Positions 5,331 to 34,411 of a stretch of 34,599 bases of DNA are shown piece by piece (the first letter of the stretch is position 1; each line of letters starts with the position of its first letter). Location: the NCBI GenBank assembly GCA_947258865.1, contig CAMYKC010000001.1, forward strand, positions 1 through 34,599, read 5' to 3'. Source of the stretch: an uncultured Lysobacterales bacterium. Its GTDB lineage: Bacteria > Pseudomonadota > Gammaproteobacteria > Xanthomonadales > SZUA-36. Below the pieces are notes generated by a model. The model saw only the letters and a list, made by a program, of their open reading frames with translations. It did no database searches and was not told the origin of the DNA. Position numbers and translations under genes: made by a program.

Positions 5331-5334
5331 CCTT

Positions 5335-8305: not shown

Positions 8306-8310
8306 GAGGA

Positions 8311-14277: not shown

Positions 14278-14778
14278 ATGGTCGTAACATGGAAGAACTC
14301 TGACGGTTCCGCGGCGCACATCGAAGCCCGGGGAAACTTTTCGCTCGACGCCGGCGGGCTGGTCAACCTGCTGCTCGGACTGGGCGCGGTAAGCCTGCTG
14401 CTCGCCGGCTTGCTGGCATGGCAGGGTTTTTGGCCGGTATTGCTGATTGCGGTGATCCAGCTTGCCCTTATCGCCTGGATACTGGTCCGGGCGTGGGAAA
14501 GAGCCTGGGTTGCGGAAGTCATCGACATCGATCACGACCGGATTCTCGTGATGCAACAGAGGCACAAGAGAAAACGCCATTACGAACTGGATACCGCGTG
14601 GGCGGTCGTCGAGCTGAAACAGCCTGAAATTTCCTGGTATCGCCCGGAACTCCGGCTGAGATCCGGATCGATATCCCTGGAATTGGGCGGGTTTCTGACG
14701 AGTGAAGAAAAGCAGCAACTGGCAGAACAGCTGCGAAGCGCGATTGTTAAACACAGCGCCATGAAGGGTGCACTTTAA
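14278..14778 (+). CDS. DUF2244 membrane protein of the cox operon
   Basis: A 166-residue protein with two adjacent membrane helices (about residues 33-49 and 54-72) and a C-terminal cytoplasmic domain ending with LELGGFLTSEEKQQLAEQL. The early WKNSDGSAAHIEARGNFSLD and the hairpin followed by RAWERAW fit the DUF2244 family. Genes of this family often sit directly before cytochrome c oxidase subunit II in proteobacteria. Its role is not established; the position suggests oxidase assembly or stability. ATG at 14278 has only a weak Shine-Dalgarno. The stop is 20 bases before ctaC, so it is probably the first gene of the operon. Confidence 0.82.
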   Translation: MVVTWKNSDGSAAHIEARGNFSLDAGGLVNLLLGLGAVSLLLAGLLAWQGFWPVLLIAVIQLALIAWILVRAWERAWVAEVIDIDHDRILVMQQRHKRKRHYELDTAWAVVELKQPEISWYRPELRLRSGSISLELGGFLTSEEKQQLAEQLRSAIVKHSAMKGAL

Positions 14779-14798
14779 TTTCTGAGGCTTATTACCCG

Positions 14799-15959: not shown

Positions 15960-15979
15960 ACCAAACAGGAACAGATGAC

Positions 15980-17626
15980 ATGAGTATCGAGAGCACTCAT
16001 AGCCACGATAACGACGCCCACCCCGCAGCACCCGGCGATCACCATGATCACAAGCCGACCGGGTTTTTCAACCGCTGGTTGTTTACCACCAATCACAAGG
16101 ACATTGGAACGTTATACCTGGTCTTCGCCCTTATTATGTTCTTTATCGGCGGCGGCATGGCCATGGTAATCCGGGCCGAGTTGTTCATGCCCGGCCTGCA
16201 ACTGGTTGAACCTGATTTCTTCAATCAGATGACCACAATGCATGCCCTGGTCATGGTTTTCGGCGCAGTCATGCCGGCCTGGGTCGGGTTCGCCAACTGG
16301 ATGATCCCGCTGATGATCGGCGCGCCAGACATGGCGCTGCCCCGCATGAATAACTGGAGTTTCTGGATTCTGCCATTCGCATTCACGATGCTGTTGAGCA
16401 CTTTGTTCATGGACTCCGGCGGTCCGGCAGCAGGCTGGACACTCTATCCGCCCCTGAGCCTCCAGGGCGGCCAAAGCTTCGCTTTCGTCGTATTCGCCAT
16501 CCACATGATGGGAATTTCATCCATCATGGGTTCCATCAATGTTATCGCAACCATACTGAACATGCGGGCGCCGGGCATGACTTTGCTTAGAATGCCTCTG
16601 TTCGTCTGGACCTGGTTGATCACCGCGTACCTGTTGATTGCCGTGATGCCGGTTCTGGCCGGCGCGGTAACGATGTTGCTCACCGATCATTTCTTCGGCA
16701 CAAGCTTCTTCAACGCGGCTGGTGGTGGCGATCCGGTAATGTTCCAGCACATTTTCTGGTTCTTCGGGCATCCGGAGGTCTATATCATGATTCTGCCGGC
16801 CTTCGGCGTCGTATCGGAGATTATCCCGACCTTCGCACGCAAGCCGCTGTTTGGCTACGCGGCCATGGTCTTTGCAACGGCAAGTATCGCGTTCCTGTCG
16901 TTCATCGTCTGGGCGCATCATATGTTCACGGTCGGCATGCCGTTGATGGGTGAACTGTTTTTCATGTACGCGACCATGTTGATTGCCGTCCCTACTGGCG
17001 TGAAGGTGTTTAACTGGGTCAGTACGATGTGGAAAGGATCGATGACGTTCGAAACGCCGATGTTATTCGCCATTGGCTTTGTCGTTTTGTTCACCATTGG
17101 AGGACTGTCCGGCCTGATGCTGGCCATCGCCTCGGTGGACCTGCAGTACCACGACACCTATTTCGTCGTTGCACATTTTCATTACGTGCTGGTTCCGGGC
17201 GCCGTGTTCGCGTTGATGGCGGGAACGTATTATTGGCTGCCCAAGTGGACGGGCCACATGTATTCCGAGACCTGGGGCAAGATCCATTTCTGGGTTTCAA
17301 CCATTTCGGTCAACATTCTGTTTTTTCCACAACATTACCTTGGCCTGGCAGGCATGCCGCGGCGCATTCCCGACTATTCGACCCAATTCGCCGATTTCAA
17401 CATGATCTCTTCGATCGGTGGATTCATTTTTGGTGCATCCCAGCTGATATTCGTCGGCGTGATTGTCCATTGCGTGTACAAAAGCCGCAAGGCTGCGCAA
17501 GGCCTAGTCTGGGAAGGCGGCAAGGGCCTGGAATGGACGCTTTCATCGCCACCCCCTTACCATTCCTTCAACACACCGCCGTTGATCGATCCGACCACGA
17601 TTTCGCACCCTGAGGAAGCTCACTGA
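15980..17626 (+). CDS. ctaD: Cytochrome c oxidase subunit I
   Basis: The catalytic heme-copper subunit that reduces O2 to water and pumps protons. The 548-residue protein has twelve or more helices. CuB and heme ligands are seen in FGHPEVYIM (His264, Glu266, Tyr268), [10 protein letters not shown] (His313/His314) and VVAHFHYV (His399 for heme a3, His401 for heme a). D-pathway residues appear in [13 protein letters not shown] and the K-pathway lysine in PTGVKVFNW, so it is an A1-type oxidase. The N-terminal tail before the first helix is notably histidine-rich (six His within 25 residues). ATG at 15980 has AGGA nine bases upstream. It is followed after 2 bases by a 44-residue peptide gene. Confidence 0.97.
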
Positions 17627-17628
17627 AG

Positions 17629-17763
17629 ATGACTGTGGACATGACGCAGCAGGACAGCATCAGCAATAAGCGCAAACGGGCTGTGAGGACAGCCTGGGTG
17701 CTGGCCGTTATCGCTGCATTGATCTTCGTGGCTTTTATCCTCTCTGGAGTGCTGGGTTCCTGA
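17629..17763 (+). CDS. Small single-helix membrane protein of the cox operon (44 aa)
   Basis: A short ORF between ctaD and ctaG. It starts with ATG at 17629, after GAGGAA at 17612-17617, and ends with TGA at 17761-17763, one base before the ctaG start. It encodes 44 residues: a polar, basic N-terminus containing NKRKRAVRT, then one hydrophobic helix (about residues 23-42, AWVLAVIAALIFVAFILSG). This resembles the small assembly-type proteins annotated between subunit I and CtaG in other proteobacterial cox operons, but the match is by size, topology and position only. It fills the gap exactly, which supports a real gene. Its function is unknown; help with oxidase or copper insertion is an inference from context. 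Confidence 0.75.
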   Translation: MTVDMTQQDSISNKRKRAVRTAWVLAVIAALIFVAFILSGVLGS

Positions 17764-17764
17764 A

Positions 17765-18340
17765 ATGGTGAGAACGGATCAAGCAGAAAGGCAACCGTCG
17801 CACACAAAGCTGGTCCGCCGGCTCGTGTTGATTGCGATCGGCATGTTCGGATTCGGGTTTGCCATGTGGCCCCTTTACAACGTGTTCTGCGACCTGACCG
17901 GATTGGGTGGCCGGGGTGTCAAGGTGGTTGAAAATGCCGGCGAGTTGGAAGTTTCTGACCGGCAGATCAAGATCCGCTTCGATGCGACAGTCAATTCTGC
18001 CCTGCCCTGGGTATTTCAGCCAAAAGAGAAAGCGATGGTGGTTTCCCTGGGTGAAATGAGCGAGGCACTTTACCTTGCCATGAATGTGGCGGATGAACCC
18101 CTGACGGGCCGGGCGACCTACAATGTAACTCCGCCTGAAGCCAGCCTGTATTTCGTAAAAACAGAGTGCTTCTGCTTTACGGAACAGGTTTTGCTGGCAA
18201 ACGAAAGCAGGGAAATGCCGGTTTATTATTTCATTCAGCCGGATTTACCTGAACACATAAAGGAAATCACACTGTCTTACACGTTTTACCTTGACGACAA
18301 TACCAGCTCAGTCGCTCAGGCATCGTCGTCAGATCAATAG
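17765..18340 (+). CDS. ctaG: Cytochrome c oxidase assembly protein CtaG/Cox11
   Basis: Cox11-type copper chaperone that delivers copper to the CuB site of subunit I. The 191-residue protein has an N-terminal cytoplasmic stub, one membrane helix (about residues 19-38), and a periplasmic domain. The copper-binding cysteines are in the CFCF motif (Cys135 and Cys137), and another conserved cysteine is in YNVFCDLTGLGG just after the helix. Family segments PWVFQPKEKAM, YNVTPPEASLYFVK and PVYYFIQPDLP are all present. It lies one base after the 44-residue peptide gene, implying coupled translation, and 45 bases before ctaE. Confidence 0.95.
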   Translation: MVRTDQAERQPSHTKLVRRLVLIAIGMFGFGFAMWPLYNVFCDLTGLGGRGVKVVENAGELEVSDRQIKIRFDATVNSALPWVFQPKEKAMVVSLGEMSEALYLAMNVADEPLTGRATYNVTPPEASLYFVKTECFCFTEQVLLANESREMPVYYFIQPDLPEHIKEITLSYTFYLDDNTSSVAQASSSDQ

Positions 18341-18385
18341 CAAGACGGCATTCCAGGGCGCGACGAGGAATAACGAGGACTAGAA

Positions 18386-19255
18386 ATGGCACATCACGCT
18401 GACGATCAGTATTACGTACCCCACGGAACCAAGTGGCCGATTATCGGATCGCTGGGGATGATCACCATGCTGGCCAGCGCTGCATACTGGGTGAACGATT
18501 CCACCGTTGCCCCGTGGACTTTTCTGGCCGGTGCTCTGATTCTCATTTATATGGTGTTTGGCTGGTTCGGGGAAGTCATCCGGGAAAGCGAATCCGGCAT
18601 GTACAACGACCAGGTCGACACGTCGTTTCGCATGGGCATGCTGTGGTTCATCTTCTCGGAGGTCATGTTTTTCGCCTGTTTCTTTGGCGCCTTGTTCTAT
18701 GCCCGCGTGTTCGCAGTGCCCTGGCTCGGTGGCGAGGGAACCGGCGCCTACACCAACGAATTATTGTGGCGGGGTTACGAGTCGGTGTGGCCGACAGCGG
18801 GCCCTGATCAATTGGGTGGATCTTTCCAGACGATACCGGCGTTCGGTGTTCCTTTCATCAATACATTGATACTGCTTGCATCCGGCGTTACGGTCACCCT
18901 GGCACACCATGCGCTGAAGAAAAACAACCGCGGCGCGTTGGTTTCGTGGCTGCTCGCCACCGTGCTGCTGGGATTCGTCTTTGTTTTCTTTCAGATCGAA
19001 GAGTATAAGGAAGCCTATCAGCACCTTGGTCTGACCATGGGTTCCGGAATTTACGGCTCTACGTTTTTCATGCTGACCGGATTCCACGGGATGCACGTAT
19101 CGCTCGGCGCCATCATGTTGCTGGTCATCGCGATCCGCTGCATGCGAGGGCACTTCAATCCGGAACACCATTTCGGCTTCGAAGCCGTGGCCTGGTACTG
19201 GCACTTCGTGGACGTGGTCTGGCTCGGCTTGTTTGTATTCGTCTACGTGTACTAG
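18386..19255 (+). CDS. ctaE: Cytochrome c oxidase subunit III
   Basis: The third core subunit of the first oxidase. It does not carry redox metals but stabilises subunit I and supports proton uptake. The 289-residue, seven-helix protein begins with MAHHADDQYYVPHGTKWP and contains FGEVIRESESGMYNDQV, RMGMLWFIFSEVMFFACFF, LTGFHGMHVSLGAIML and the C-terminal AVAWYWHFVDVVWLGLF, all standard for long-form (mitochondrial-like) subunit III. ATG at 18386 follows GAGGA at 18375-18379 with six-base spacing. Downstream lies the opposite-strand DUF2909 gene, so the transcript must pass over it if SURF1 and later genes share this operon. Confidence 0.96.
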   Translation: MAHHADDQYYVPHGTKWPIIGSLGMITMLASAAYWVNDSTVAPWTFLAGALILIYMVFGWFGEVIRESESGMYNDQVDTSFRMGMLWFIFSEVMFFACFFGALFYARVFAVPWLGGEGTGAYTNELLWRGYESVWPTAGPDQLGGSFQTIPAFGVPFINTLILLASGVTVTLAHHALKKNNRGALVSWLLATVLLGFVFVFFQIEEYKEAYQHLGLTMGSGIYGSTFFMLTGFHGMHVSLGAIMLLVIAIRCMRGHFNPEHHFGFEAVAWYWHFVDVVWLGLFVFVYVY

Positions 19256-19309
19256 TCCGCTGCAGAAACAAACACGGAAACCAGGGCCCACCTGTAAGTG
19301 GATTTTGTA

Positions 19310-19555
19310 TCAATCGGGGCCGGTTGCCTGCTCTGGAACCTGCATACCGACAGGGCCGCCGCTGGGTTCAATCCAACCCATCTGATAAGCCCCCCAGAGG
19401 AATAGGAAAAGCAACAGGGAAAGTCCGATTCGCCACGTCAGCCTCTTGACCATGCGATCACCTTCGCCGTGATCCCTGACCAGGAAAATCATGGCAGAAC
19501 CCAGGCTGTACAGAATGACGAGAATGAATAGGATGATCAGGATTTTGATGGCCAT
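19310..19555 (-). CDS. DUF2909 twin-transmembrane small protein
   Basis: A short inner-membrane protein (81 residues from ATG at 19555) with two helices, IKILIILFILVILYSLGSAMIF and LTWRIGLSLLLFLFLWGAYQMG, separated by a charged loop DHGEGDRMVKR. This twin-helix pattern is that of the DUF2909 family, often found beside subunit III and SURF1 in gammaproteobacteria. The frame stays open to 19588, but the residues before MAIKI do not extend the family pattern. It is on the strand opposite to its cox neighbours, between ctaE and SURF1. Function unknown; the location suggests a role with the oxidase. Confidence 0.78.
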   Translation of the reverse strand: MAIKILIILFILVILYSLGSAMIFLVRDHGEGDRMVKRLTWRIGLSLLLFLFLWGAYQMGWIEPSGGPVGMQVPEQATGPD

Positions 19556-19621
19556 GATTGTCTCGATCAATAGTGTTTGTGCCTTCAATTATAGCCAAAC
19601 AGCCTTGCCTTGCGTGGAAGA

Positions 19622-20332
19622 ATGGTGAAATTCAGAACGTCGCTCAAACTGACCCTGCTCCTTTTTGCCCTGGCTCTGGGTTTTGCGCGGATGGGGCTAT
19701 GGCAACTGGACAGAAAAACAGAAAAAGAAGCCTTGTTCGAGCTCTACGACAATGCTCCGGTTTTGCAGCTTGAAGTGGCTATCGATCGCAAACAGCGTTT
19801 TGCACGCGTGGAGGCCTTTGGCCGCTATGACGCCACTCGTCATATTCTGCTGGACAACGCTATTTTCAATGGGCGTGCCGGTGTGTATGTGCTTACACCG
19901 TTTACTCTTGCAGACGGCACTTCCCTGCTGGTCAATCGCGGATGGCTTGCGCTGCCTGCCGATCGTCGCAGTCTGCCCGAAGTGCCAACCGACAACAGCC
20001 CGGTGACGATCAATGGCCGCTTGAACGCACTGCCAACTGACGGCCCCAGGATTGGAGAGCTGGATGTGCTTGCACGCAACCGCTGGCCCCAGCTCGTGAC
20101 CTATCTTGATCCGGAGTCGGTCAGCAAGGCACTCGACATGGAGCTGGCCAACTGGCTTGTGCAGCTCGATGCCTCGGATGCCAGCGGTTTCGAGGGAAGG
20201 GAATGGCAGGCCGCCGTAATGAAGCCACAGGTCCATGGTGCTTATGCCCTCCAGTGGTTCGCTTTGAGTATCGCCGCTATCATCATCTGGATTTCGCTGG
20301 CTGTGCGAAGCACGAAGGAAAAATATCCATGA
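19622..20332 (+). CDS. SURF1 family cytochrome oxidase biogenesis protein
   Basis: SURF1/Shy1 proteins assist heme a insertion into subunit I. The product (236 residues) has the family topology: an N-terminal helix (about residues 7-25), a periplasmic domain and a C-terminal helix (LQWFALSIAAIIIWISLAV). Signatures include LGFARMGLWQLDRKTEKEAL, GRYDATRHILLDNAIFNGRAGVYVLTPF and LLVNRGWLALPADRRSLP. ATG at 19622 is chosen; TTG at 19610 and GTG at 19625 are alternatives, and GGAAG at 19616-19620 would suit the GTG best. It overlaps the Sco-like gene by 4 bases (ATGA), so the downstream genes are coupled. Confidence 0.92.
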   Translation: MVKFRTSLKLTLLLFALALGFARMGLWQLDRKTEKEALFELYDNAPVLQLEVAIDRKQRFARVEAFGRYDATRHILLDNAIFNGRAGVYVLTPFTLADGTSLLVNRGWLALPADRRSLPEVPTDNSPVTINGRLNALPTDGPRIGELDVLARNRWPQLVTYLDPESVSKALDMELANWLVQLDASDASGFEGREWQAAVMKPQVHGAYALQWFALSIAAIIIWISLAVRSTKEKYP

Positions 20333-20919
20333 AATTCAGTCTCTCGCCGCGGTTTACCCTGGTCATTATTGCAACCTTGTTCTTCTTGCCGCTGGCCCTG
20401 GCATGGATGATGTTCCAGGGAATCATCGAGTTCAGCCCAGTTTCAACACGAAACCTGGGACAATTGGTTCAGCCCCCGATTGCGATCAATTGGAAGAATG
20501 ACGAGGCTGAAACCATGGGCGGCCACTGGGTCATTTTGCATGCAACACCGGACCCTTGCCCGGCTTCGTGCATCGAAGCGGTAACGGGTCTACGCCAGGT
20601 GCACAAGGCTGCAGGACGCAACCAGTCCCGTATTCGGGTCGCCTTGTTGCTGAGGCGCAGCCACGCGGAACTCTCGACTACCTTGAGCGAGATCTATCCA
20701 CCATTTCACATAATGAGTGAAGCAGACGGCGAAATCTGGTCAATCCTGGAACAGATCGCCAAATCATCGCCCTCCCCGTCGCGCGCAGCCGGTGGCAGCT
20801 ACCTGATCGATCCGCTTGGCCATATAATGATGTTTTACGAGACCGGTTCCGATCCGAATCATTTGAGAAAAGATCTGAAGCGCCTACTTACCTGGTCAAA
20901 ACTGGACGAACAGTCGTGA
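20329..20919 (+). CDS. Sco-like, thioredoxin-fold oxidase assembly protein with CxxxC
   Basis: A 196-residue protein with one N-terminal membrane helix (about residues 8-29) and a periplasmic domain. A DPCPASC segment carries a CxxxC pair just after the strand HWVILHATP, the position of the copper-binding cysteines in Sco1/SenC proteins. The C-terminal GGSYLIDPLGHIMMFYE resembles the ylidp.G strand of that fold. Similarity to Sco is weak elsewhere. The position between SURF1 and ctaA matches the uncharacterised gene there in Pseudomonas cox loci. Copper delivery to CuA or thiol reduction of subunit II is inferred. ATG at 20329 overlaps the SURF1 stop by 4 bases; the frame is open upstream but only antisense-like sequence lies there. 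Confidence 0.75.
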   Translation: MKFSLSPRFTLVIIATLFFLPLALAWMMFQGIIEFSPVSTRNLGQLVQPPIAINWKNDEAETMGGHWVILHATPDPCPASCIEAVTGLRQVHKAAGRNQSRIRVALLLRRSHAELSTTLSEIYPPFHIMSEADGEIWSILEQIAKSSPSPSRAAGGSYLIDPLGHIMMFYETGSDPNHLRKDLKRLLTWSKLDEQS

Positions 20920-21908
20920 AACCTGGATTACACCGCCTTGCGGTAATAGCCGCCATCGTTGCGTTCGTCGTAATCATGCTTGGAGCTTATGTGCGGTTGT
21001 CGCATGCCGGCCTGGGCTGCCCGGACTGGCCGGGATGTTACGGCCAGATGACGTGGCCTGTCGACACCAATGAGGTGGAACAGGCCAACATGGCGTTTCC
21101 GGAGCGGCCTGTCGAAAGCGTCAAAGCCTGGAAGGAAATGGTGCATCGCTACCTGGCCGGCTTGCTTGTACTTCTCGTTCTCGCAATCAATGTTGTTGCC
21201 TGGGTTTCCCGCCAAACCCGGGGTACAACGCGCCTGCTGGCAGGAATATTGTTGGTCCTGATCCTGTTTCAGGCTGCTCTGGGAATGTGGACCGTGACAT
21301 TAAGGCTTTTACCGGTCGTTGTCATGGGTCACTTGATGGGCGGTTTGGCTACTTTCAGCCTCTTGTTATGGCTCAGCTGGCAAACCGGAAGGACTGCCCG
21401 ATCGGAGAATAGCGGGTCTTTCATGCCGTTCCGATCCATGATCATCACCAGCCTTATTGTGCTGGTGCTGCAGCTGATGCTGGGAGGCTGGACCAGCGCC
21501 AACTATTCCGCACTGGCCTGCCCGGATTTCCCTAGCTGCCAGGGTGAATTTTGGCCAGATACCAACTTCAAGGATGGATTTGTCCTTTGGCGTGAAATCG
21601 GCGTCGATTACGAAGGCGGCGTATTGGATCTGCCCTCCCGAACGGCGATCCACATGGCTCACAGAATTGGAGCGCTCATCACGTTCCTGCTGCTTGGATT
21701 CCTGGCATTACGGCTTGTGCGATTCCCGGATTGCCGCCGGGGCGGGATCCTGCTGGCTGCGCTTCTTCTGATACAGGTGACGCTTGGGATTTTGAACGTA
21801 TTACTGTTTTTGCCGCTGCCCATTGCCGTGGCACATAATGCAACCGGTGCCCTGTTGCTGGCCGTGATGCTCTGGCTAACCCGACGTTCCGGGCTGCGTT
21901 ACGACTGA
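20916..21908 (+). CDS. ctaA: Heme A synthase (CtaA/COX15)
   Basis: CtaA oxidises heme O to heme A in the inner membrane. The 330-residue, eight-helix protein shows the duplicated four-helix arrangement and the conserved heme-ligand histidines: [39 protein letters not shown] and [13 protein letters not shown]. It also has the family N-terminal [19 protein letters not shown], with its cysteine pair, and the parallel second-half [11 protein letters not shown]. The start is GTG at 20916, overlapping the previous stop by 4 bases (GTGA). ctaB follows after 4 bases. Together they supply heme a for subunit I. Confidence 0.96.
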
Positions 21909-21912
21909 TCTG

Positions 21913-22788
21913 ATGTCGTCACTGGCCGGCCGATACTTTGAACTGTGCAAACCGCGGGTGGTTGCCTTGATCGTGTTCACGGCAATCGTCGGCATGTTTC
22001 TCGCGGTACCCGGCTGGCCGCCGCCCCTCCCTTTGATTGCCGGAACGCTGGGCATCGGCTTGGCCGCATCTTCGGCCGCCGCGATCAATCATCTGCTGGA
22101 CCAACGAATCGATGCCGTGATGGCGCGCACCCGCAACCGTCCCCTGCCGACGGGTCAGTTAACCATCACACAGGTGCTCACCTTCGCCTTTGCACTCGGC
22201 CTGCTGTCGATGGCAATTCTCATTATCTGGGTCAACGTGCTGACGGCGATGCTGACATTCTTCTCCTTGATTGGATACGCCATCATCTATACGGTCTGGC
22301 TCAAGCGGGCGACGCCGCAGAATATCGTTATAGGCGGCGCTGCGGGCGCGGCGCCACCCGTGCTGGGCTGGACTGCCATGACGGGGATGATCGATCACAA
22401 TGCGCTGTTATTGTTCCTGATCATCTACGTCTGGACGCCTCCGCATTTCTGGGCTCTGGCAATACACCGGCGGCGTGAATATGCAGCGGTCGATATCCCG
22501 ATGCTGCCGGTAACACATGGTGTTCGCTTTACTCTTTGGCACATTCTTTTTTATACAATCCTGCTGGTCATTGTCACTACGATGCCGTTTCTAACCGGCA
22601 TGAGTGGTCTACTCTATCTCGCCGGCGTGACCGTTTTGAATATTGGATTCCTCTGGTACGCATTACGCCTGCTGCTGAACCATGACGATGCCCTACCCAT
22701 GCAGACTTTCGGATATTCCATCATTTACCTGATGGTGCTGTTCATGTTTCTACTGGCCGACCACTATTTGCAAATGCTTCTGATCTAG
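21913..22788 (+). CDS. ctaB: Protoheme IX farnesyltransferase (heme O synthase)
   Basis: CtaB/CyoE adds a farnesyl group to protoheme to make heme O, the substrate of CtaA. This UbiA-type polytopic enzyme of 291 residues has the first conserved prenyl-diphosphate motif in [19 protein letters not shown] and the second aspartate/polar loop around [40 protein letters not shown] is the third typical block. ATG at 21913 lies 4 bases after the ctaA stop. It is the last recognisable gene of the first oxidase locus. No senC/sco1 gene follows, although that is a common next gene; gcvP comes instead. Confidence 0.96.
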
Positions 22789-25802: not shown

Positions 25803-26171
25803 TTAGTGATGCGGTTGGGAAATTTCCTCAGCCGGGCCGAACGTTATCAGACGTGCAAGAAACGTATAGTCTCCCTCTATCGCCATCAGCGCAATGAAGA
25901 CCAACAGGCACAGCGGCGGAACAAGGATGGCATAGATCAGGGCCAGCCGTTCCCAAGCCATGTGCATGAATATGGCAATAATGGCGCCCGCCTTCAGAAA
26001 CATGAACAACAGTATGAGGGTCCACCGCAGCGCACCTTCCAGTTGGAAATAATCCACGGCATAGGAAAATCCACTGAGCACGAACAGCAGAATCCAGACC
26101 ACGATGTAAATACTCAAAGGGTGCTGTTGGTGTCCCTCGACCTGAGTCACTTCCGCCTGTGTCGTCGTCAT
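25803..26171 (-). CDS. Cytochrome c oxidase subunit IV, second oxidase
   Basis: A 122-residue protein with three membrane helices (starting near HPLSIYIVVWILLFVLSG, LILLFMFLKAGAIIAIFM and IYAILVPPLCLLVFIAL). The second helix ends in IFMHMAWER, matching the FMHMKxE feature of bacterial COX4/CyoD-like subunits. Such subunits stabilise the heme-copper core. I start at ATG 26171, six bases past the upstream subunit III stop; the longer frame from 26213 would overlap that gene. It is the last gene of the minus-strand oxidase operon. Its TAA stop is immediately next to the gcvP stop on the other strand, with no intervening base. Confidence 0.85.
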   Translation of the reverse strand: MTTTQAEVTQVEGHQQHPLSIYIVVWILLFVLSGFSYAVDYFQLEGALRWTLILLFMFLKAGAIIAIFMHMAWERLALIYAILVPPLCLLVFIALMAIEGDYTFLARLITFGPAEEISQPHH

Positions 26172-26176
26172 CTCAT

Positions 26177-26878
26177 TCACCACAAATAGAAAAACGCAAA
26201 AATAAATACCCATACCAGGTCGACAAAATGCCAGTAGAGACCGGTGATTTCGACCATTTCATAATTGCCGCCGCGATGACGGTCGTAGTAGCCCGTCCCA
26301 ACGCGGGTGGCGGTGACAATCAGGTAAATAACACCTGCCGAAACGTGCATGCCGTGAAAACCGGTGATCATGAAAAATGTCGAGCCAAACTGCGCTGCGC
26401 CCATCGGATTGCCCCAGGGCCTGACCCCTTCATCCACTATCAGCTTGGTCCATTCAAAAGCCTGCATACCGACAAACATCGCGCCCAAAGCGGCCGTCGC
26501 CAGCATCAGCAATACGGTCTTCTTCTTGTCGCGCCGGTATCCATAATTCACGGCCAGCGCCATGGTGCCGCTGGACGTTATCAGGACAAAAGTCATGATC
26601 GCGATCAGGATCAGCGGAATCGGCTCACCGCCAAAGCTGAGTGCAAACACTTCGCTGGGATTCGGCCAGGGAACTGTGGTTGTGATCCTGACATTCATGT
26701 ACCCAATCAGGAAACAGGAAAAAATGAAGGTGTCGCTGAGCAGGAAAATCCACATCATGGCCTTGCCCCAGGGCACATGAAAAGCCTGCTTGTCATCCGA
26801 CCAGTCGATAACAATGCCTTCGAGGCCTGTTTGTTCCGCCATTGCAGGCTCAGCTCCAGTCAATGATTGATCTGTCAT
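26177..26878 (-). CDS. Cytochrome c oxidase subunit III, second oxidase (paralogue B)
   Basis: A 233-residue, five-helix subunit III of the short bacterial type. Recognisable segments are GKAMMWIFLLSDTFIFSCFL, SSGTMALAVNYGYRRDKK, MFVGMQAFEWTKLI, FFMITGFHGMHVSAGVIYL and the C-terminal LYWHFVDLVWVFIFAFFYL, the standard final-helix motif. The N-terminal 35 residues are soluble. It lies 21 bases downstream of a second subunit III-like gene and just before the subunit IV gene on the minus strand. It keeps the canonical FHGMHV and WHFVD features more fully than its neighbour, so it is the more conventional of the two. Confidence 0.92.
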   Translation of the reverse strand: MTDQSLTGAEPAMAEQTGLEGIVIDWSDDKQAFHVPWGKAMMWIFLLSDTFIFSCFLIGYMNVRITTTVPWPNPSEVFALSFGGEPIPLILIAIMTFVLITSSGTMALAVNYGYRRDKKKTVLLMLATAALGAMFVGMQAFEWTKLIVDEGVRPWGNPMGAAQFGSTFFMITGFHGMHVSAGVIYLIVTATRVGTGYYDRHRGGNYEMVEITGLYWHFVDLVWVFIFAFFYLW

Positions 26879-26899
26879 ACCTTCATCCCCGGAATGTCC

Positions 26900-27514
26900 T
26901 CATGTCTTCAGCAACAGGGCGAACAGCACCAGCCAAACCAGCAACAGGTAATGCCAGTAGGTCGCACACAAGGTGACGCTGTGTCGAATTCTTTCCCTTT
27001 TGTTTTCCTGTCTCATACTGAAACCCAGGCGGCCCAGGAACCACATGCCACCCACCAGGTGCAGGGCGTGCAGCCCGGTAAACAGGTAGAAAAAAGCAAT
27101 GGCCGGATTACCCCAGGCGTAGAATCCGGCTTCGACCAGCTGATTCCAGGCCACCAGCTGCCCGGCGATGAATAGCAGTGTCAGCAAGGCGCCGGCAAAC
27201 AGAGAATTTCGCATACTCACCATTGCTTTTCGCCGCGCTGCGTTACTGGCCATTTGCAGTGCAACGCTGGCCAGCACCAGCACACCCGTGTTGAGCCACA
27301 GGATGCCTGGGTCTGCGAGGATCTCCCAATCCGGGAAGCGGCTCCTGGTGTAATAGCTGATCATGAACAGCAGAAACATGCTGCTGATCACAGCCAGGAA
27401 CATGAACAAACCGGTCCGGCCGGCCGAGTGGGCGGCGATGTATTCGCCGTGCAGGCCTTCCATCTCCCCGGCATGCTCCCAGGGTTTGGCGGTGATTTTG
27501 CGCAGCAAGTTCAT
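26900..27514 (-). CDS. Cytochrome c oxidase subunit III-like protein, second oxidase (paralogue A)
   Basis: A 204-residue, five-helix protein with subunit III organisation but a more divergent sequence: RTGLFMFLAVISSMFLLFM, NTGVLVLASVALQMAS, GQLVAWNQLVEAGFYAW, YLFTGLHALHLVGGMWFLG (in place of the usual FHGMHV) and ATYWHYLLLVWLVLFALLL at the C-terminus (WHYLLLVW in place of WHFVDxxW). The soluble N-terminus is about 33 residues. Its ATG overlaps the subunit I stop by 4 bases (27511-27514), so it is translationally coupled to the catalytic subunit. Two separate, complete subunit III genes in one operon suggest both may join the complex; this is inferred from order only. Confidence 0.88.
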   Translation of the reverse strand: MNLLRKITAKPWEHAGEMEGLHGEYIAAHSAGRTGLFMFLAVISSMFLLFMISYYTRSRFPDWEILADPGILWLNTGVLVLASVALQMASNAARRKAMVSMRNSLFAGALLTLLFIAGQLVAWNQLVEAGFYAWGNPAIAFFYLFTGLHALHLVGGMWFLGRLGFSMRQENKRERIRHSVTLCATYWHYLLLVWLVLFALLLKT

Positions 27515-29292
27515 GAATGCTCGCCTTCACCGCCGTCGTAGCTTGAGCCTGGATCCGTGGGTACGTCTTCCGGCGCCATGGTTTGCGGAATGTAGTCCTG
27601 TGACGCACCCGGGACACTGAAGTCATAGGCCCAGCGGTAGACCACGGGCAAGTCCGGTCCCCAGTTGCCGTGAACCGGCGGCGTCTGCGGCGTTTGCCAT
27701 TCCAGGGTGGTCGCTTTCCAGGGGTTGCCGCCGGAAGGCTTACCCCGCGTGCGGCTCCAGAACAGGTTGAACAGGAAAATAAGCTGCACCGCGGCAACGA
27801 AAAATGCCGCGATGGAGATTCCGGCATTCATGGCCTGGGCCGAATCAGGAATAAAGGAGGTATCGCCCATGGCGTAGTAACGACGGGGTAAGCCCAGGAT
27901 GCCCAGGTAATGCATCGGCAGGTAGATCGCGTAGGTACCGAACAAGGTCAGCCAGAAGTGAATCCGCCCAAGCCGGTCATTCAACATGCGGCCGGTGATT
28001 TTGGGATACCAATGATAGATCGCGCCGAAAATGACCAGTATGGGCGATACACCCATGACCATGTGGAAGTGACCAATGACGAAATAAGTGTCTGAAAGCG
28101 GCATGTCAACCGCCACGTTGCCCAGAAACAGCCCGGTGATGCCACCGTTGATAAAGGTGAAAATAAAACCGATGACGAACAGCATGGGTACCGTCAAGTG
28201 GATGTCACCGCGCCATAACGTCAGCACCCAGTTATACACTTTGAGCGCGGTCGGAATGGCGATTATCAGGGTCGTGGTGGCAAAGAAGAAACCAAAATAC
28301 GGATTCATGCCGCTGACGTACATATGATGCGCCCAGACAATGAACGATATGATCCCGATAGCCAGTATGGCCCACACCATCATGCGGTAACCAAAGATGT
28401 TTTTGCGTGCATGCACGGCAACGAGGTCGGAAATCACGCCAAAGGCCGGCAAGGCGACAATGTAGACTTCCGGGTGTCCAAAGAACCAGAACAAGTGCTG
28501 GAACAGGATGGGGCTGCCGCCGCTGTGCTCGGAAACTTCGCCCATCGACAGTAGGGCGGGCATGAAGAAACTGGTGCCCAGCACACTGTCCAACAGCAGC
28601 ATGATTCCAGTCACGAGCAGCGCCGGAAAAGCCAGAAGGCCCAAAATGGTGGCAACGAAAATCCCCCACACAGACAAAGGCATTCGCATCAGTGTCATGC
28701 CGCGGCAGCGGGCCTGCAGCACAGTGGTCACGTAATTCAGGCCGCCCATGGTGAAGGCCACGATAAACAGAACCAGAGACAAAAGCATCAGTACAATGCC
28801 GCCATTGTTCCCGGGTGTTCCGGGCAAAATGACCTGCGGCGGGTACAGAGTCCAGCCGGCACCGGTTGGCCCTCCCGAGATAAAGAAACTGGCACACAAC
28901 ACTATTACCGAAAGCAGGTAAACCCAGTAACTGACCATGTTCATGAACGGGAAAACCATGTCCCGTGCACCGCACATCAGGGGGATCAGGTAGTTCCCAA
29001 ATCCACCCAGCAATAACGCTGTCAGCAGGTAGATCACCATGATCATGCCGTGCATGGTGATCGCCTGATAGTACTCATCGGGTGAGATGAACGAAAAAGT
29101 ATCCGGGAAGCCCAATTGCAGGCGCATGATCAGGCTGAGCCCCAGCGCGACCAGTCCGACAGCGATGGCCGTCAAGGAATACTGGATGGCAATGACTTTA
29201 TGGTCCTGGCTCCAGATGTACTTGGTGACAAAGGTTTGGGGATCATGCAGGTGTTGCTCATGATCCCGGTCTGCTAATGCAACATATGCCAT
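27511..29292 (-). CDS. Cytochrome c oxidase subunit I, second oxidase
   Basis: A 593-residue catalytic heme-copper subunit clearly distinct from the ctaD product at 15980. Ligand motifs are TMHGMIMVIYLL (heme a His), [15 protein letters not shown] (CuB His with the cross-linked Tyr), WAHHMYVSGM (CuB His pair) and FVIGHFHMVMG (heme a3/a His). D-pathway residues appear in CGARDMVFPFMN and the K-pathway lysine in PTALKVYNW, so this is an A1-type pumping oxidase. The N-terminus (MAYVALADRDHEQHLHDPQ) and the 50-residue C-terminal extension, rich in Pro and Gly, differ from ctaD. It lies 21 bases after subunit II and overlaps the next subunit III gene by 4 bases. Confidence 0.95.
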   Translation of the reverse strand: MAYVALADRDHEQHLHDPQTFVTKYIWSQDHKVIAIQYSLTAIAVGLVALGLSLIMRLQLGFPDTFSFISPDEYYQAITMHGMIMVIYLLTALLLGGFGNYLIPLMCGARDMVFPFMNMVSYWVYLLSVIVLCASFFISGGPTGAGWTLYPPQVILPGTPGNNGGIVLMLLSLVLFIVAFTMGGLNYVTTVLQARCRGMTLMRMPLSVWGIFVATILGLLAFPALLVTGIMLLLDSVLGTSFFMPALLSMGEVSEHSGGSPILFQHLFWFFGHPEVYIVALPAFGVISDLVAVHARKNIFGYRMMVWAILAIGIISFIVWAHHMYVSGMNPYFGFFFATTTLIIAIPTALKVYNWVLTLWRGDIHLTVPMLFVIGFIFTFINGGITGLFLGNVAVDMPLSDTYFVIGHFHMVMGVSPILVIFGAIYHWYPKITGRMLNDRLGRIHFWLTLFGTYAIYLPMHYLGILGLPRRYYAMGDTSFIPDSAQAMNAGISIAAFFVAAVQLIFLFNLFWSRTRGKPSGGNPWKATTLEWQTPQTPPVHGNWGPDLPVVYRWAYDFSVPGASQDYIPQTMAPEDVPTDPGSSYDGGEGEHS

Positions 29293-29313
29293 TAATTTAC
29301 TCTCCTGCCGCCG

Positions 29314-30666
29314 TCACAGCGTGTTGATATAGGCCACCACGTCCCTGATGGCCTGCTCGTCACGCAACATTCCCGAAATCAGGGTCATTTGTTTTCCGTA
29401 CAGGTCCTGCGGGTGCGCACCGCGAATTCCCTGCCTGTAATTTTCCAGTTGCCTGGCCAGGTACCAGTCATCGGCGCCCTTGAGGGCAGGCGCATTCTGC
29501 GACCAGATGCCCTGCCCGCCGGAACCGTGGCACGACAGGCAGGTGGTGTATATCTTCTCGCCCCTGGCTGTGTCGCCACTGATTGTCTTTCGTGATTCCG
29601 AGTCAGGCAGTGAAGCGATATAGGCCGCCACGTTTGCGATTGCGGCATCGTCTGCGAGGACGGCCGCCATAGGCGCCATCTGTGCGCCAAATGCATCACC
29701 CGGGTCGCCTCCCCTCAGGCCGTGCTTGAAATTCATGAGTTGGCGCTCCAGGTACCAGGGCTGCAATCCGGTCAGCTTGGGCGCATTGAGCATTTCATTG
29801 CCTTCGCCACTGGCGCCGTGGCAGGCACTGCATACAGCGTATGAAGCCTTTCCGGCTGCCAGGGTGGGAGTTGGCCGTGCCAACACTTCGGCAAACGTCG
29901 GGTAGCCGGCCAGCCAATCCTCGAATGCGGCTTTTTCTTCGACTACCACCACTCCCCGCATCGCGAAATGCGCAATGCCGCAAAGTTCTTCGCACATGAT
30001 GTCAAAGCGACCTGGGCGGGTTGGTTTTAGCCAGACATACGGAACCATGCCGGGGATCAGATCCATCTTCACCCGAAACTGTGGGACGGTGAAATTGTGC
30101 AGCACGTCCTTGGAACGGAGGACAAATTTGTAAGGCTGGTTGATGGTCAGATGTAACTCGGGATTGGTAATGAGGATGTCATCCTGGCCGGCCGGATCGT
30201 CCGGCTTCAGGCCCAGGGGATTGTCCACCGTCATCAGGCCGATGTCGACCTGGCCCAGAACTCCATCTTCACCGGGGAAGCGGAAACTCCAATGCCATTG
30301 CTGGCCGACCACTTCCACGACCGCGGCATCGTCGGGCACTTCGATGATTCGAGCCCAGACCCAGAGGCCCGGCGCCAGCATGGCGATGACTCCTACCGAT
30401 GTAACGATGGTCAGCCACCACTCCAGCTTTTTGCTTTCCGGCTCGTAGTGGGCCTTCTGTCCCTGGCGGTGACGATATCGGATGATCACCCAGATCAGGA
30501 AACCATTCAGGGCGATGAAGACAACTCCGGTCACCCAGAAAGTAATATCAACCGTGAGGTCGATTGATGCCCAATCAGCAGCAAGTGGCGTAAACCACCA
30601 GGGGCTCAGGAAGTGAAAAAGAACAGTGATGACGACCAGTACAAGAATTCCTACAGCTATTCCCAT
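29314..30666 (-). CDS. Cytochrome c oxidase subunit II with two tandem cytochrome c domains
   Basis: A 450-residue CuA subunit. Three hydrophobic stretches (about 2-20, 41-63, 84-105; the first may be a signal anchor) precede a cupredoxin domain with CuA ligands His190 and Cys225/Glu227/Cys229/His233/Met236 in CEELCGIAHFAM, and the aromatic patch GQQWHWSFRF. Two class I cytochrome c domains follow, with CSACH at 279-283 and CLSCH at 376-380. The two are similar along their length (PWYLERQLMNFKHGLRG and DWYLARQLENYRQGIRG), so they arose by internal duplication. Heme c and CuA mark it as a cytochrome c oxidase, not a quinol oxidase. It is first of the structural genes in the second oxidase operon. 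Confidence 0.93.
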   Translation of the reverse strand: MGIAVGILVLVVITVLFHFLSPWWFTPLAADWASIDLTVDITFWVTGVVFIALNGFLIWVIIRYRHRQGQKAHYEPESKKLEWWLTIVTSVGVIAMLAPGLWVWARIIEVPDDAAVVEVVGQQWHWSFRFPGEDGVLGQVDIGLMTVDNPLGLKPDDPAGQDDILITNPELHLTINQPYKFVLRSKDVLHNFTVPQFRVKMDLIPGMVPYVWLKPTRPGRFDIMCEELCGIAHFAMRGVVVVEEKAAFEDWLAGYPTFAEVLARPTPTLAAGKASYAVCSACHGASGEGNEMLNAPKLTGLQPWYLERQLMNFKHGLRGGDPGDAFGAQMAPMAAVLADDAAIANVAAYIASLPDSESRKTISGDTARGEKIYTTCLSCHGSGGQGIWSQNAPALKGADDWYLARQLENYRQGIRGAHPQDLYGKQMTLISGMLRDEQAIRDVVAYINTL

Positions 30667-30690: not shown

Positions 30691-31257
30691 TTATTCGGGG
30701 ACCTGGTCTGATTGCTTTCTGCGTCTCCTTCGCTCAACCCGGGCAAAGGGATTGATGAAGTGCACATCGGTGGCGGCATGTCGCGATTCCGGGTGCCGGT
30801 CACGCATCATTTGCTTGACTTGTTCACCCATTCCCTTGCGGGCATAGATCAAAATGAGGTACTTGCCCGCTTCGATGTCATCGTGGAATCGCTTCAGTTT
30901 TTGGTTCTCGCTGTCCATGCCCGTGAGGCCGCCCACCCAGGCCCCGAATAAGGTGGCTACCGCGACCAGGAAAAAATAGGCGATAACCGGTACGTTTGGC
31001 CCAAAGGGCTTGAACAGCATCATTCCACCAGCAGCCAGCACACCAGCGATGAAGCCGATGTTCGCCCCGATAAAACCATTGCGAAGGAGATCCTTGGTTT
31101 CCAGCCAGTTACTCGAGTGGAGTTTTTCTTTCTTCAACCCGGCTTCGTCTTTCGAAATGACGTGAACGTGCCAGTCTTCGATTCCCACGTCGTGAAGATC
31201 GTCGGAAATCTGATGTGTACTCACCAGAGAGGGTGCGAGATAGTACATGCATTTCAT
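30691..31257 (-). CDS. Uncharacterised membrane protein at the head of the second oxidase operon
   Basis: A 188-residue protein. The N-terminal ~58 residues look like a small soluble domain (MKCMYYLAPSLVSTHQISDD, then GIEDWHVHVISKDEAGL). A glycine-rich helical hairpin follows (about residues 62-81 and 90-110, the second ending FGAWVGGLTGMD), and a cytoplasmic C-terminal part contains EAGKYLILIYARKG and a very basic RVERRRRRK near the end. Overall it resembles the DUF1269-like or stress-protein-like membrane proteins, but I do not claim a family. It ends 24 bases before the subunit II gene on the same strand, so it is likely co-transcribed and may be the first gene after the promoter in 31258-31428. 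Function unknown. Confidence 0.7.
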   Translation of the reverse strand: MKCMYYLAPSLVSTHQISDDLHDVGIEDWHVHVISKDEAGLKKEKLHSSNWLETKDLLRNGFIGANIGFIAGVLAAGGMMLFKPFGPNVPVIAYFFLVAVATLFGAWVGGLTGMDSENQKLKRFHDDIEAGKYLILIYARKGMGEQVKQMMRDRHPESRHAATDVHFINPFARVERRRRRKQSDQVPE

Positions 31258-31428: not shown

Positions 31429-32082
31429 TCATGATCTTTTCAACCACCAGAGCGACGTCACGAAACCGAAGATCAGGGCCAGTGACGCGAGCAGAAGAGT
31501 GGGGGCCGGCAAATAACTGAATCGGTAGAACTCATCGCTGACGCCAGGCACGCCCCAGAGGTCTCCGCTGCCCTCCCCGACCACCAACTGGCCCCTCATG
31601 CCTTTCTCCATGTGTTGGGCCATGTCACAGTGAATCAGGAAGGTTTGATCGTCACCGGGAACGATGAAAGTGCCTTTCATGCTGTGCCCACCCGCCGCCT
31701 CGATATGGAACATGCCCGCGGGGTAGAGATACTTCGGAAGACCATGAACCATCCACTGGTGGCGCACCTCGTCCTCGTTTACGAAGGTAATTTCAATGCG
31801 GCTGCAGGGTTCCACCCGGACTTCATGCTGGCTCATACCAAAAATTCTCCCGGGATGCTCACCTGCGTAAGCCCGGCCAGCCCGAATATTGAATTGATAG
31901 TCCCGGCTGACCTTGTCGCAGTCGCGCGGGAGTGTGGCGTGGTTTTCATTCATGACCACACCGGCAGGTATTACCTCCATTTGGTGATGACCATGCTCCG
32001 TGTGGTCGACAACTTCCTGGCCATTGATTGATACGGGCAAGATAAGCAACACGCCGGCAAACCAGCGAATACCCCTGGCCAT
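31429..32082 (-). CDS. Exported single-domain cupredoxin with C-terminal membrane anchor
   Basis: From ATG at 32082 the product is 217 residues: a signal peptide (about 1-21), a His/Met-rich segment (DHTEHGHHQMEVIPAG, about 26-41), two cysteines (55, 93) possibly in a disulfide, and a cupredoxin domain with type 1 copper ligands His108, Cys152, His157 and Met162 (RHQWMVHG and HCDMAQHMEKGM). A final helix (about 193-213) ends in LWWLKRS. It should sit on the periplasmic face of the membrane and carry electrons or copper. The frame stays open upstream to 32202, but that part overlaps the multicopper oxidase gene and would bury the signal peptide. It lies 23 bases after that gene. Not a recognised named protein. 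Confidence 0.8.
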   Translation of the reverse strand: MARGIRWFAGVLLILPVSINGQEVVDHTEHGHHQMEVIPAGVVMNENHATLPRDCDKVSRDYQFNIRAGRAYAGEHPGRIFGMSQHEVRVEPCSRIEITFVNEDEVRHQWMVHGLPKYLYPAGMFHIEAAGGHSMKGTFIVPGDDQTFLIHCDMAQHMEKGMRGQLVVGEGSGDLWGVPGVSDEFYRFSYLPAPTLLLASLALIFGFVTSLWWLKRS

Positions 32083-32105
32083 CGATAGCCACCGCGCCGG
32101 CACGA

Positions 32106-33782
32106 TCAACCGCGCCGAACCCGGCTTATTGGCGCGGACAATAGAACCGCCGCAATGACACCGGCTGCCAGCGCCAGGCCCAGGACGCGCAGTAACATCC
32201 ACCCATCGAAATCTGCGTCCGAAAACAGGCCAGGCGCATAGCTCTCCCAGACGGGGATCTCTTTGCGATAGTAGGCTTGCGTGAAATAGTTGTCCCAGGG
32301 GACGCCACGAGTCCGTGGCCAGCCTGTCTTGTCCAGAAATTGTGAATAAACAATGGCGCTGATATTGCCACCCGGGCCTATGCCGTCGTTGGTGACGCCA
32401 CTGTACTGATGGTCGTGGAACAGCCAGATACCCGGACCATAGGCGTGCTTGCCGTCATTGGTCAGATCGAGCGCCAGGTCTGCGCGCTGGGAGGTGGCCA
32501 GCCAGACCACGTCCTGCGGCGACAGTGTACTGTGCGGCAACTCGATGCCGTCGCGATGCGTGACCGTAAACTTGTGGCCGTGCGTGTGTAAAGCGATTCC
32601 TTTCGCCCCTCCGTTGACTACTCGCAGCCGAATACGTTCGTCTTTTTCTCCAACGACCAGCGATTCTCTGAATGTGTAGGGAAAAGACCGTCCGTTCAAT
32701 GTAAAGAAGTCCGAAGATGAATCGGTGATGTCGTATTCCCGGTGCATCGCGCGCGTGATGATGCGGGGATCGTTATGCTGCTGGATACGTTCGCTTAGTT
32801 CTTTATCGAGATCAAGATAATGCAGGTCGTATTCACGGTCGAATTCTTCGCGCAATGCCCGGGATGGCACGCGTACCAGGCCGGCGCCGATATTCATGGT
32901 CTGAAGCCAATTGTCAGGCCGGTTTTCCTCGATGATGAACAGGCCCTGCAATCCCATCATCACGTGTACGTGGGGCTGGACGTGGCAATGATAAAACATG
33001 GTTCCGCTTTGGCGCGGCTGTAGTTCGTAGGTGCGCGCGTTGCCGGGCATCACCGGCATTTCGCTGGTGATTGGCACGCCGTCATTGCCTTCACCATCTG
33101 CGTCCACAAAGCCATGGTCCGCACCGTGCAGATGCAGTGTATGCGGCATGTAATGACTGTTCTCCAGCGTGATGCGCACCCTGTCACCCTGCTCGATCCG
33201 GATGGCGGGAGATGGCAGCCGCAGCGATCGCCTTGCCTGGTTGGACTCGAAATTCTCAACCGCCATGCCGACGAACTTTGGAGCGAAGACCCACAAACCA
33301 GGCCGGATTCCCGGCGCGATATCGTAGCGGGTGACCGGACCGCGGGTTAGCGCGGACCCCCCGTTGAGCTCTGCTACTTCGAGCCGGATATGGATTTCGT
33401 CGGGATCGCCATCGCCGTCCAGGTCGCGGCCCTTTTCTACCGCATCGGCCGCCAGGCCACTTTTCATCAGGGTGTTTTGCGAGACATTATTGCTGCCGCG
33501 CACGAAGGCTGCGACCGCGAAAGGATTATCTGCTGTACAGGAAGCGGATTCGCTGATTTCCAGGCCTTCTATCGACTGTCGGTCTCGCCAGCCCTCCGGG
33601 TCCGGTGGACAAAAGGGTTCAGGCGCGGTGACTTGCGTGGCCAACGACTCAGGAAGTTCGCGGAATCCCGCGGCGCCGAACCACTCAGTCAGTTTTAACC
33701 TGAGGGTCATGGGGTACCACTGGGGCGGGTAGGACACAATGGCCAACAACAGGGCCAGGGCCAGCACCCAGCGCCGATTCAT
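32106..33782 (-). CDS. Membrane-anchored multicopper oxidase
   Basis: A 558-residue exported oxidase with an N-terminal helix (about 5-18) and a C-terminal membrane helix (about 529-551) ending in RVRRG. Copper motifs in order are HTLHLHG (214-220), FYHCHVQPHVHVMMG (263-277), LHTHGHKF (398-405) and FHDH (455-458). The eight histidines of a trinuclear centre can be supplied, while the type 1 copper cysteine (Cys266) is in the first copper domain and not in the last, unlike laccases and CueO. An acidic loop DLDGDGDPDE (120-129) looks like a calcium-binding loop. It overlaps the upstream unknown gene by 4 bases and precedes the cupredoxin. The substrate cannot be read from sequence; copper or another metal ion is possible. 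Confidence 0.88.
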   Translation of the reverse strand: MNRRWVLALALLLAIVSYPPQWYPMTLRLKLTEWFGAAGFRELPESLATQVTAPEPFCPPDPEGWRDRQSIEGLEISESASCTADNPFAVAAFVRGSNNVSQNTLMKSGLAADAVEKGRDLDGDGDPDEIHIRLEVAELNGGSALTRGPVTRYDIAPGIRPGLWVFAPKFVGMAVENFESNQARRSLRLPSPAIRIEQGDRVRITLENSHYMPHTLHLHGADHGFVDADGEGNDGVPITSEMPVMPGNARTYELQPRQSGTMFYHCHVQPHVHVMMGLQGLFIIEENRPDNWLQTMNIGAGLVRVPSRALREEFDREYDLHYLDLDKELSERIQQHNDPRIITRAMHREYDITDSSSDFFTLNGRSFPYTFRESLVVGEKDERIRLRVVNGGAKGIALHTHGHKFTVTHRDGIELPHSTLSPQDVVWLATSQRADLALDLTNDGKHAYGPGIWLFHDHQYSGVTNDGIGPGGNISAIVYSQFLDKTGWPRTRGVPWDNYFTQAYYRKEIPVWESYAPGLFSDADFDGWMLLRVLGLALAAGVIAAVLLSAPISRVRRG

Positions 33783-34411
33783 CGTGTCACTCCTTGTTTG
33801 GACGGTGCTGGCGACGTACTCCGGTATCGGCGCATGGCCAGGAATGCCACGCCGGCCAGCAACAACACCAGCGGAAGAAGATAGCTGCGCCCGGATGCAC
33901 CGACCTCGAATGGAAACACGGCAGTGTACGTTGTCTGCTTGCTTGGATGTCCGGCTGAAACGATCCCGAGGTAAACGCCTTTTTCCTTGAAATCATATTC
34001 AATCTTGAGAGACGCATCCGGGCGAATGATGGGCGGCTGGTAGAAAACCGTATGCCGCTCAATATCTTCAAGGGCCTCAACGTGCTTGAGCTTGACGAAA
34101 CGGCCCTGCCCGGTCACATCCCGGATTATGCGGAAATCCACCGGGACTTCCTTCAGGCTCTGATGCAGATAATCGAGAACGAAAATGGTTTCTCCAATGT
34201 TTGGCAGTTGCTCGCAGAATTGCTCGTTACCACTGGAGCCTGGTTGATACGCGGTGAAGTGCGCCGAGTAGAAATCGATCCAGATGATGCAAATATCATC
34301 CTCGATCACCAGCCCTCCGCCTGCCTGGACCCCGGCAACAGGGCACAGCAAAAAAATCGCGCTCGAACAAGTGCGCAACAGGTATTTGCTGAATTTCCGG
34401 ATTCGGGACAC
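33779..34411 (-). CDS. Uncharacterised exported protein with C-terminal membrane helix
   Basis: A 210-residue protein of no family I recognise. It has a signal peptide (basic start, hydrophobic core, cleavage near VQAGGG at about residue 30), a mature domain with two cysteines (41 and 66), aromatic-rich strands (IIWIDFYSAHFTAYQPG), FVLDYLHQSLKEVPVDFRII, and a late beta-rich part with GVYLGIVSAGHP and YTAVFPFEVG that could be an immunoglobulin-like sandwich. A C-terminal helix (about 176-193) ends in MRRYRS. GTG at 34411 is preceded by GAGG at 34416-34419. Its stop overlaps the multicopper oxidase start by 4 bases, so the two are coupled and probably work together. Function unknown. Confidence 0.75.
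   Translation of the reverse strand: MSRIRKFSKYLLRTCSSAIFLLCPVAGVQAGGGLVIEDDICIIWIDFYSAHFTAYQPGSSGNEQFCEQLPNIGETIFVLDYLHQSLKEVPVDFRIIRDVTGQGRFVKLKHVEALEDIERHTVFYQPPIIRPDASLKIEYDFKEKGVYLGIVSAGHPSKQTTYTAVFPFEVGASGRSYLLPLVLLLAGVAFLAMRRYRSTSPAPSKQGVTR

Follow-up and report, generated by a model that had tools for sequence, protein, structure and literature searches.

A PmoD-family, multicopper oxidase, and cupredoxin gene unit as a probable partner of a two-heme caa3 oxidase in genomes without detected CuMMO

The window, which is the whole stretch of 34,599 nucleotides that was analyzed, encodes on its minus strand a PmoD-family protein, a multicopper oxidase (MCO), and a cupredoxin, and sequence comparison makes it highly probable that these three form one module that is paired with a two-heme caa3 oxidase. 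That the module handles copper and is of the type found at the end of some pmo operons, here uncoupled from CuMMO and paired with the two-heme caa3 oxidase, is a proposal whose chances we regard as evenly balanced.

Organization of the three-gene unit and the neighboring oxidase operons

The PmoD-family gene (33779–34411, minus strand, 210 amino acids, GTG start) overlaps the MCO gene (32106–33782, minus strand, 558 amino acids) by 4 bases (33779–33782), and a gap of 23 bases (32083–32105) separates the MCO gene from the cupredoxin gene (31429–32082, minus strand). The product of the latter has 217 amino acids when counted from the ATG; the mechanical open reading frame begins further upstream, within the MCO gene. 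When terminators and promoters were sought in the three-gene unit, no clear signal was found. The preliminary description of these genes as one compact unit holds, as the PmoD-like protein, the MCO, and the cupredoxin are shared in exactly the same set of 8 of the 37 family genomes and in identical gene order, which is far beyond chance. The topology described for the three proteins was likewise borne out. Each has an N-terminal signal or anchor, judged from the sequence rather than by a signal-peptide program, and a C-terminal hydrophobic helix followed by a basic tail. By a simple hydropathy cut-off this helix is retained in 38 of 50 homologues of the PmoD-like protein, 45 of 45 of the MCO, and 42 of 43 of the cupredoxin.

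Downstream of the unit and on the same strand lies a caa3 oxidase operon (25803–30666), confirming the caa3-type neighbor of the preliminary description. The operon, all on the minus strand, encodes subunit II with a CuA site and two heme c domains (29314–30666; Pfam COX2 and two cytochrome c domains), subunit I (27511–29292; Pfam COX1, TIGR02891), two COX3-family proteins (26900–27514 and 26177–26878; Pfam COX3 twice), and subunit IV (25803–26213; Pfam COX4_pro). Subunit II contains a complete CuA motif, Hx34Cx3Cx3Hx2M (residues 190–236), and two CXXCH heme sites (residues 279 and 376). The tandem COX3-family genes differ from each other, and the doubling is also seen in L030 and L031. No assembly genes are contained in the caa3 operon itself. 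A gene for a DUF1269-like membrane protein of 188 amino acids (30691–31257, minus strand; weak Pfam match, below the cut-off) separates the unit from the operon, and neighborhood clustering found it together with the oxidase operon in 8 loci. The window also contains a second, ordinary A-type oxidase operon (14799–22788, plus strand) with a single-heme subunit II, Cox11/CtaG, SURF1, CtaA, and CtaB, and the three-gene unit therefore adjoins an alternative oxidase.

The PmoD-family protein

The 210-residue protein had been described as unknown and has no match to any Pfam or NCBIfam family. A profile built from eight relatives matched PmoD of Methylocystis (PDB ID 6cpd) with an E-value of 8e-18 over profile positions 34–166 (hmmsearch), and by this match the protein is assigned to the PmoD family. 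Its predicted architecture of a signal peptide, a periplasmic domain with two invariant cysteines, and a C-terminal membrane helix is that of the PmoD/AmoD family. Unlike PmoD/AmoD (6cpd; PMC6189053), the window protein has a metal motif of the Cx9HxnC class (C41-x9-H51 ... C66) instead of Cx7MxHxnC, is found in genomes without CuMMO, and nearly always occurs together with a two-heme caa3. Among the homologues Cys-41 and His-51 are present in 49 of 50, and Cys-66 and His-83 in all 50. Residue 49 is Ser in the window protein and T, S, E, R, K, Q, or D in the homologues, with Met in 0 of 50; the CuA-forming Cx7MxHxnC set, which defines one PmoD subclass, is accordingly not present in the window protein. 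Without Met-49 the protein is not expected to form the kind of CuA site present in Methylocystis PmoD. A PmoD of the Cx9HxnC class bound copper and formed no CuA site (Fisher et al. 2018, PMC6189053).

A tree of PmoD sequences groups the CuMMO-free ones into one clade (support 98), which falls among the sequences of CuMMO genomes, close to those encoded in pmo operons; this placement is moderately supported and involves long branches. In L142 (8714–9706, plus strand) a PmoD-like protein is fused to a C-terminal YtkA-like domain; the genome concerned (G253) has caa3 and neither the window-type MCO nor PmoB.

The multicopper oxidase

The MCO is type-C-like and, judged from its conserved ligands, has an intact oxygen site. 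It contains the Pfam domains Cu-oxidase_3 and Cu-oxidase_2, and its best PDB matches are 3g5w and 2zwn, with the alignment covering both domains; the type-C-like two-domain core comprises residues ~188–482. As in the type-C two-domain MCOs, represented by the N. europaea enzyme (3g5w) and a metagenomic laccase (2zwn), the type-1 ligands (Cys-266, His-273, and Met-276) lie in domain 1, and the trinuclear ligands come from both domains, with HCH at 265–267 in domain 1 and HDH at 456–458 in domain 2. The type-1 ligands and all eight trinuclear histidines (His-217, His-219, His-265, His-267, His-399, His-401, His-456, and His-458) are invariant in 45 homologues, and the type-1 Cys is found in domain 1 only, as is characteristic of type C. 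Unlike 3g5w and 2zwn, the window MCO has an N-terminal extension of ~185 residues and a C-terminal anchor, and it shares an operon with PmoD and a cupredoxin. The extension is strongly conserved and includes Cys-58/Cys-82 and a DLDGDGDPD loop at 120–128 (DxDGDGDxD in homologues). It has no Pfam or PDB match, and with it the protein is larger than the two cupredoxin domains to which type-C enzymes are confined. The conserved part of the extension (residues 58–185) corresponds to window positions 33228–33608, and its DxDGDGDxD loop resembles calcium-binding loops.

Several other identities were considered for the MCO and rejected, namely a CueO/CopA copper-resistance oxidase (38 and 48 bits, with NCBIfam cut-offs of 525 and 479), a copper nitrite reductase (37 bits, cut-off 296), and an ascorbate oxidase (score under the cut-off). 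The AlphaFold model of the MCO had a pLDDT of 49 and was set aside. In the MCO tree the sequences from CuMMO genomes, together with one fragment (G251), are separated from 46 CuMMO-free ones with a support of 98. As the type-1 site and the full trinuclear site are kept, the MCO should itself reduce oxygen, and the electron path of the preliminary description, leading from the substrate of the oxidase via the cupredoxin to caa3, is unlikely.

The cupredoxin

The third protein is, on the basis of its sequence and predicted fold, a small type-1-like cupredoxin for which copper binding is predicted. It has a His/Met-rich N-terminal tail, Cys-55/Cys-93, and the C-terminal helix, and its type-1-like ligand set (His-108 and C152-x4-H157-x4-M162) is invariant in 43 homologues. 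The AlphaFold model (mean pLDDT 84, confident in the core) matches the folds of two-domain laccases, auracyanin, and the cupredoxin domain of N2O reductase with E-values of ~1e-6. The cupredoxin fold and the Cx4Hx4M ligand spacing are shared with auracyanin and other small cupredoxins. Unlike auracyanin, the window cupredoxin has a His-rich N-terminal tail, additional conserved residues (Met-111, His-113, Met-124, His-126, and Met-158), and a C-terminal anchor. PDB sequence matches of the cupredoxin to AMP-activated kinase were judged to be due to chance. None of the three unit proteins has a Pfam match to PCuAC, Sco, CopC, or Cox11.

Conservation of the unit and its pairing with the caa3 oxidase

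A scan of one genome per species (84,980 species) resulted in 49 loci encoding the PmoD-like protein, with the MCO gene next in 46 of these and the cupredoxin gene then following in 42 of the 46; the remaining four stop at a contig edge. Two observations that the preliminary description had named as speaking against the unit, a 210-residue protein that is common without the copper proteins and genes that are scattered in relatives, were not made, as the MCO adjoins in nearly all loci and the CuMMO-free relatives keep the genes together. The carriers are mostly marine gammaproteobacterial metagenome-assembled genomes (Lysobacterales, Woeseiaceae, Halieaceae, and others), and the genomes are mostly drafts. 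PmoD and caa3 are present in L074 with no adjoining MCO gene and in G253 with no MCO found in the genome, and given these two cases the MCO may be dispensable. In L035 a divergent SCO1/SenC gene (7759–8352, minus strand) lies directly beside the unit as a further copper-loading neighbor. A broader sample of 299 Pseudomonadota genomes, in which alpha- and betaproteobacterial methanotrophs and nitrifiers are hardly covered, contained only two MCO carriers.

The caa3 subunit II was found in 10 of the 37 family genomes, comprising all 8 with the unit and 2 of the 29 others (p = 1.2e-6), and both unit-free genomes with this subunit are incomplete (65% and 83%). Within the genera g7 and g9 the unit and caa3 are either both present or both absent, and because of this co-variation the pairing is not explained by shared ancestry alone. 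The unit and caa3 are on different contigs in G001, G009, and G012 and ~34 kb apart in G018, and such co-occurrence without adjacency indicates that linkage alone does not account for the pairing either. The tie to the caa3 oxidase that the preliminary description had drawn from the location of the genes is thus supported by parallel presence and absence. The unit adjoins the caa3 operon in about a quarter of the loci; this adjacency recurs, with eight changes on the tree by parsimony, and the expected adjacency is, as a rough estimate, ~1% per locus. Among the further carriers caa3 subunit II was found in 26 of 28, with G081 having a contig-end fragment (L067) and G082 having none, and some of the matches are partial (residues 1–288 in G079 and G088, the diheme part in G072). 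Two-heme caa3 was present in 6 of 293 gammaproteobacteria, five of which carry PmoD, the sixth having a partial match, and in 2 of 10 CuMMO genomes. By this distribution the PmoD-family genes of the class pair with CuMMO or with a two-heme caa3, and almost never with neither.

Relation of the unit to CuMMO

PmoD/AmoD has been reported to be specific to methane and ammonia oxidizers, with its role unresolved (PMC6189053), and a published statement confines PmoD homologues to genomes with CuMMO. The CuMMO-free carriers contradict this rule. PmoB was not found in 35 of 36 tested carriers, including the genome of the window, and PmoA was not found in 18 of 19 genomes tested. The genome of the window (90% complete) has no PF04744 and no PF02461 match, and the single-contig genome G131 contains the trio but lacks both PmoB and PmoA. 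Apart from G131 the absence of PmoB rests mostly on draft genomes; assembly gaps are an unlikely cause, since the absence is consistent over 35 genomes. In the one exception (G078) PmoB was found, together with caa3 and a lone PmoD-like gene without an adjoining MCO.

In genomes with CuMMO the same three genes end two pmo operons, pmoC-pmoA-pmoB-pmoD-MCO-cupredoxin in L130 and pmoA-pmoB-pmoD-MCO-cupredoxin in L131. Two further CuMMO genomes contain the contiguous trio apart from pmo, and four others the MCO-cupredoxin pair apart from pmo. In a class-wide sample of 369 gammaproteobacteria PmoB was present in 10 and PmoD in 13, including all ten, and the window-type MCO was present in 8 of the 10 CuMMO genomes compared with 3 of the 359 others. 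The pmo operon of L131 is flanked by genes that, read from their translations, encode an AlkB-like monooxygenase, an aldehyde dehydrogenase, and a PQQ-type dehydrogenase (857–2176, 3851–5653, and 13651–15321), which suggests that the CuMMO of L131 may be a hydrocarbon-oxidizing enzyme.

The trio at the end of pmo operons, and pmoD adjoining an MCO gene in methanotrophs as recorded in two papers (PMC6189053, PMC6688271), replace the earlier view that no named system has this composition. The available text of the second paper also reports that M. capsulatus MCA2130 falls without copper (PMC6688271). The window shares the PmoD-MCO neighborhood with M. capsulatus MCA2130 and Methylacidiphilum Kam1, where it is copper-responsive in M. 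capsulatus; it differs in that those genomes have pMMO and, as far as that text extends, the cupredoxin and the caa3 partner enter the comparison on the side of the window only (PMC6688271). A literature search, covering few subscription papers, found no description of the trio or of its presence outside CuMMO genomes.

Possible function of the unit

For a role of the module in metalation the prospects appear close to even, if slightly on the lower side. In both partner enzymes, CuMMO and caa3, which are large and membrane-bound, the copper sites are accessible from the periplasm and need to be loaded from there. Copper loading is the simplest task that the two could have in common. The three anchored proteins would bind periplasmic copper, through the His-rich tail of the cupredoxin and the Cx9HxnC motif of PmoD, and the MCO, by means of oxygen, would adjust the oxidation state of the copper or keep the cupredoxin oxidized. 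PmoD and the cupredoxin would then pass copper to a large membrane enzyme, which would be CuMMO in methane or hydrocarbon oxidizers and the CuA and/or CuB site of caa3 here. More tentatively, a metalation pathway may have arisen at the end of pmo operons and been reassigned to a respiratory oxidase, with PmoD, the membrane MCO, and the cupredoxin loading the CuA/CuB sites of the two-heme caa3 and the MCO gating the transfer by oxygen. The proposed periplasmic copper supply to CuA would be like that of Sco/PCuAC, which load CuA in other bacteria (PMC9145763), although the unit proteins are unrelated to these loaders and have no sequence match to them. Several points weigh against metalation. 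With Cox11 already encoded in the window and Sco/PCuAC loading CuA elsewhere, it is not evident that another loader is required, and the missing Met-49 speaks against a Methylocystis-type CuA site in PmoD. L074 and G253 combine PmoD and caa3 without an adjoining or detectable MCO, and the type-1-like sites of the MCO and the cupredoxin would suit electron transfer at least equally well.

Given the type-1-like site of the cupredoxin, electron transfer is the main rival to metalation, and we consider it unlikely, with perhaps a modest chance of being correct. The cupredoxin, possibly with PmoD, would carry electrons to or from a partner such as the diheme subunit II of caa3 or the CuMMO of methanotrophs, and the MCO would be an oxygen-reducing side branch. 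The Cx4Hx4M site and auracyanin-like fold of the cupredoxin are consistent with this, as is the pairing of the unit with redox enzymes, and one published proposal is that PmoD may supply reducing equivalents (PMC6189053). However, a caa3 with fused hemes is already fed by cytochrome c, and an MCO acts as an electron sink when its trinuclear site is intact. We also know of no electron donor common to CuMMO and caa3.

Periplasmic copper defense or scavenging, in which the MCO as a cuprous oxidase or laccase would lower toxic Cu(I) and the link to caa3 would reflect aerobic, copper-rich habitats, is improbable. The CueO and CopA families of MCOs do have such a function (these are the best NCBIfam matches, all far under the cut-off), and the His-rich tail of the cupredoxin would fit it, but neither the near-perfect pairing with one oxidase type nor the location inside pmo operons is predicted. 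Hitch-hiking of the unit and the oxidase on one mobile or ancestral block with no common function, as the adjacency in part of the loci might suggest, is very improbable in view of the genomes with separate contigs or a distance of tens of kilobases and of the joint presence and absence within two genera.

If the metalation reading is true, PmoD-family proteins would serve in general to load large membrane copper enzymes with copper in an oxygen-linked manner, and this function would not be tied to the oxidation of methane or ammonia. The specificity rule is broken by a large clade of PmoD proteins from outside methane and ammonia oxidizers, nearly all of which occur with a defined respiratory oxidase. 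The caa3 oxidase offers a second partner enzyme of PmoD with a measurable copper content and thereby a new handle on the function of a long-puzzling family. PmoD function could be tested, free of the difficulties that methanotrophs pose, in CuMMO-free marine gammaproteobacteria; one carrier among them is on record under a strain name (Candidatus Litorirhabdus singularis IMCC14734, L083), and its match to caa3 subunit II spans residues 1–288 only. The undescribed MCO and cupredoxin are also regular companions of CuMMO, and this could be relevant to the activity that pMMO loses when it is isolated.
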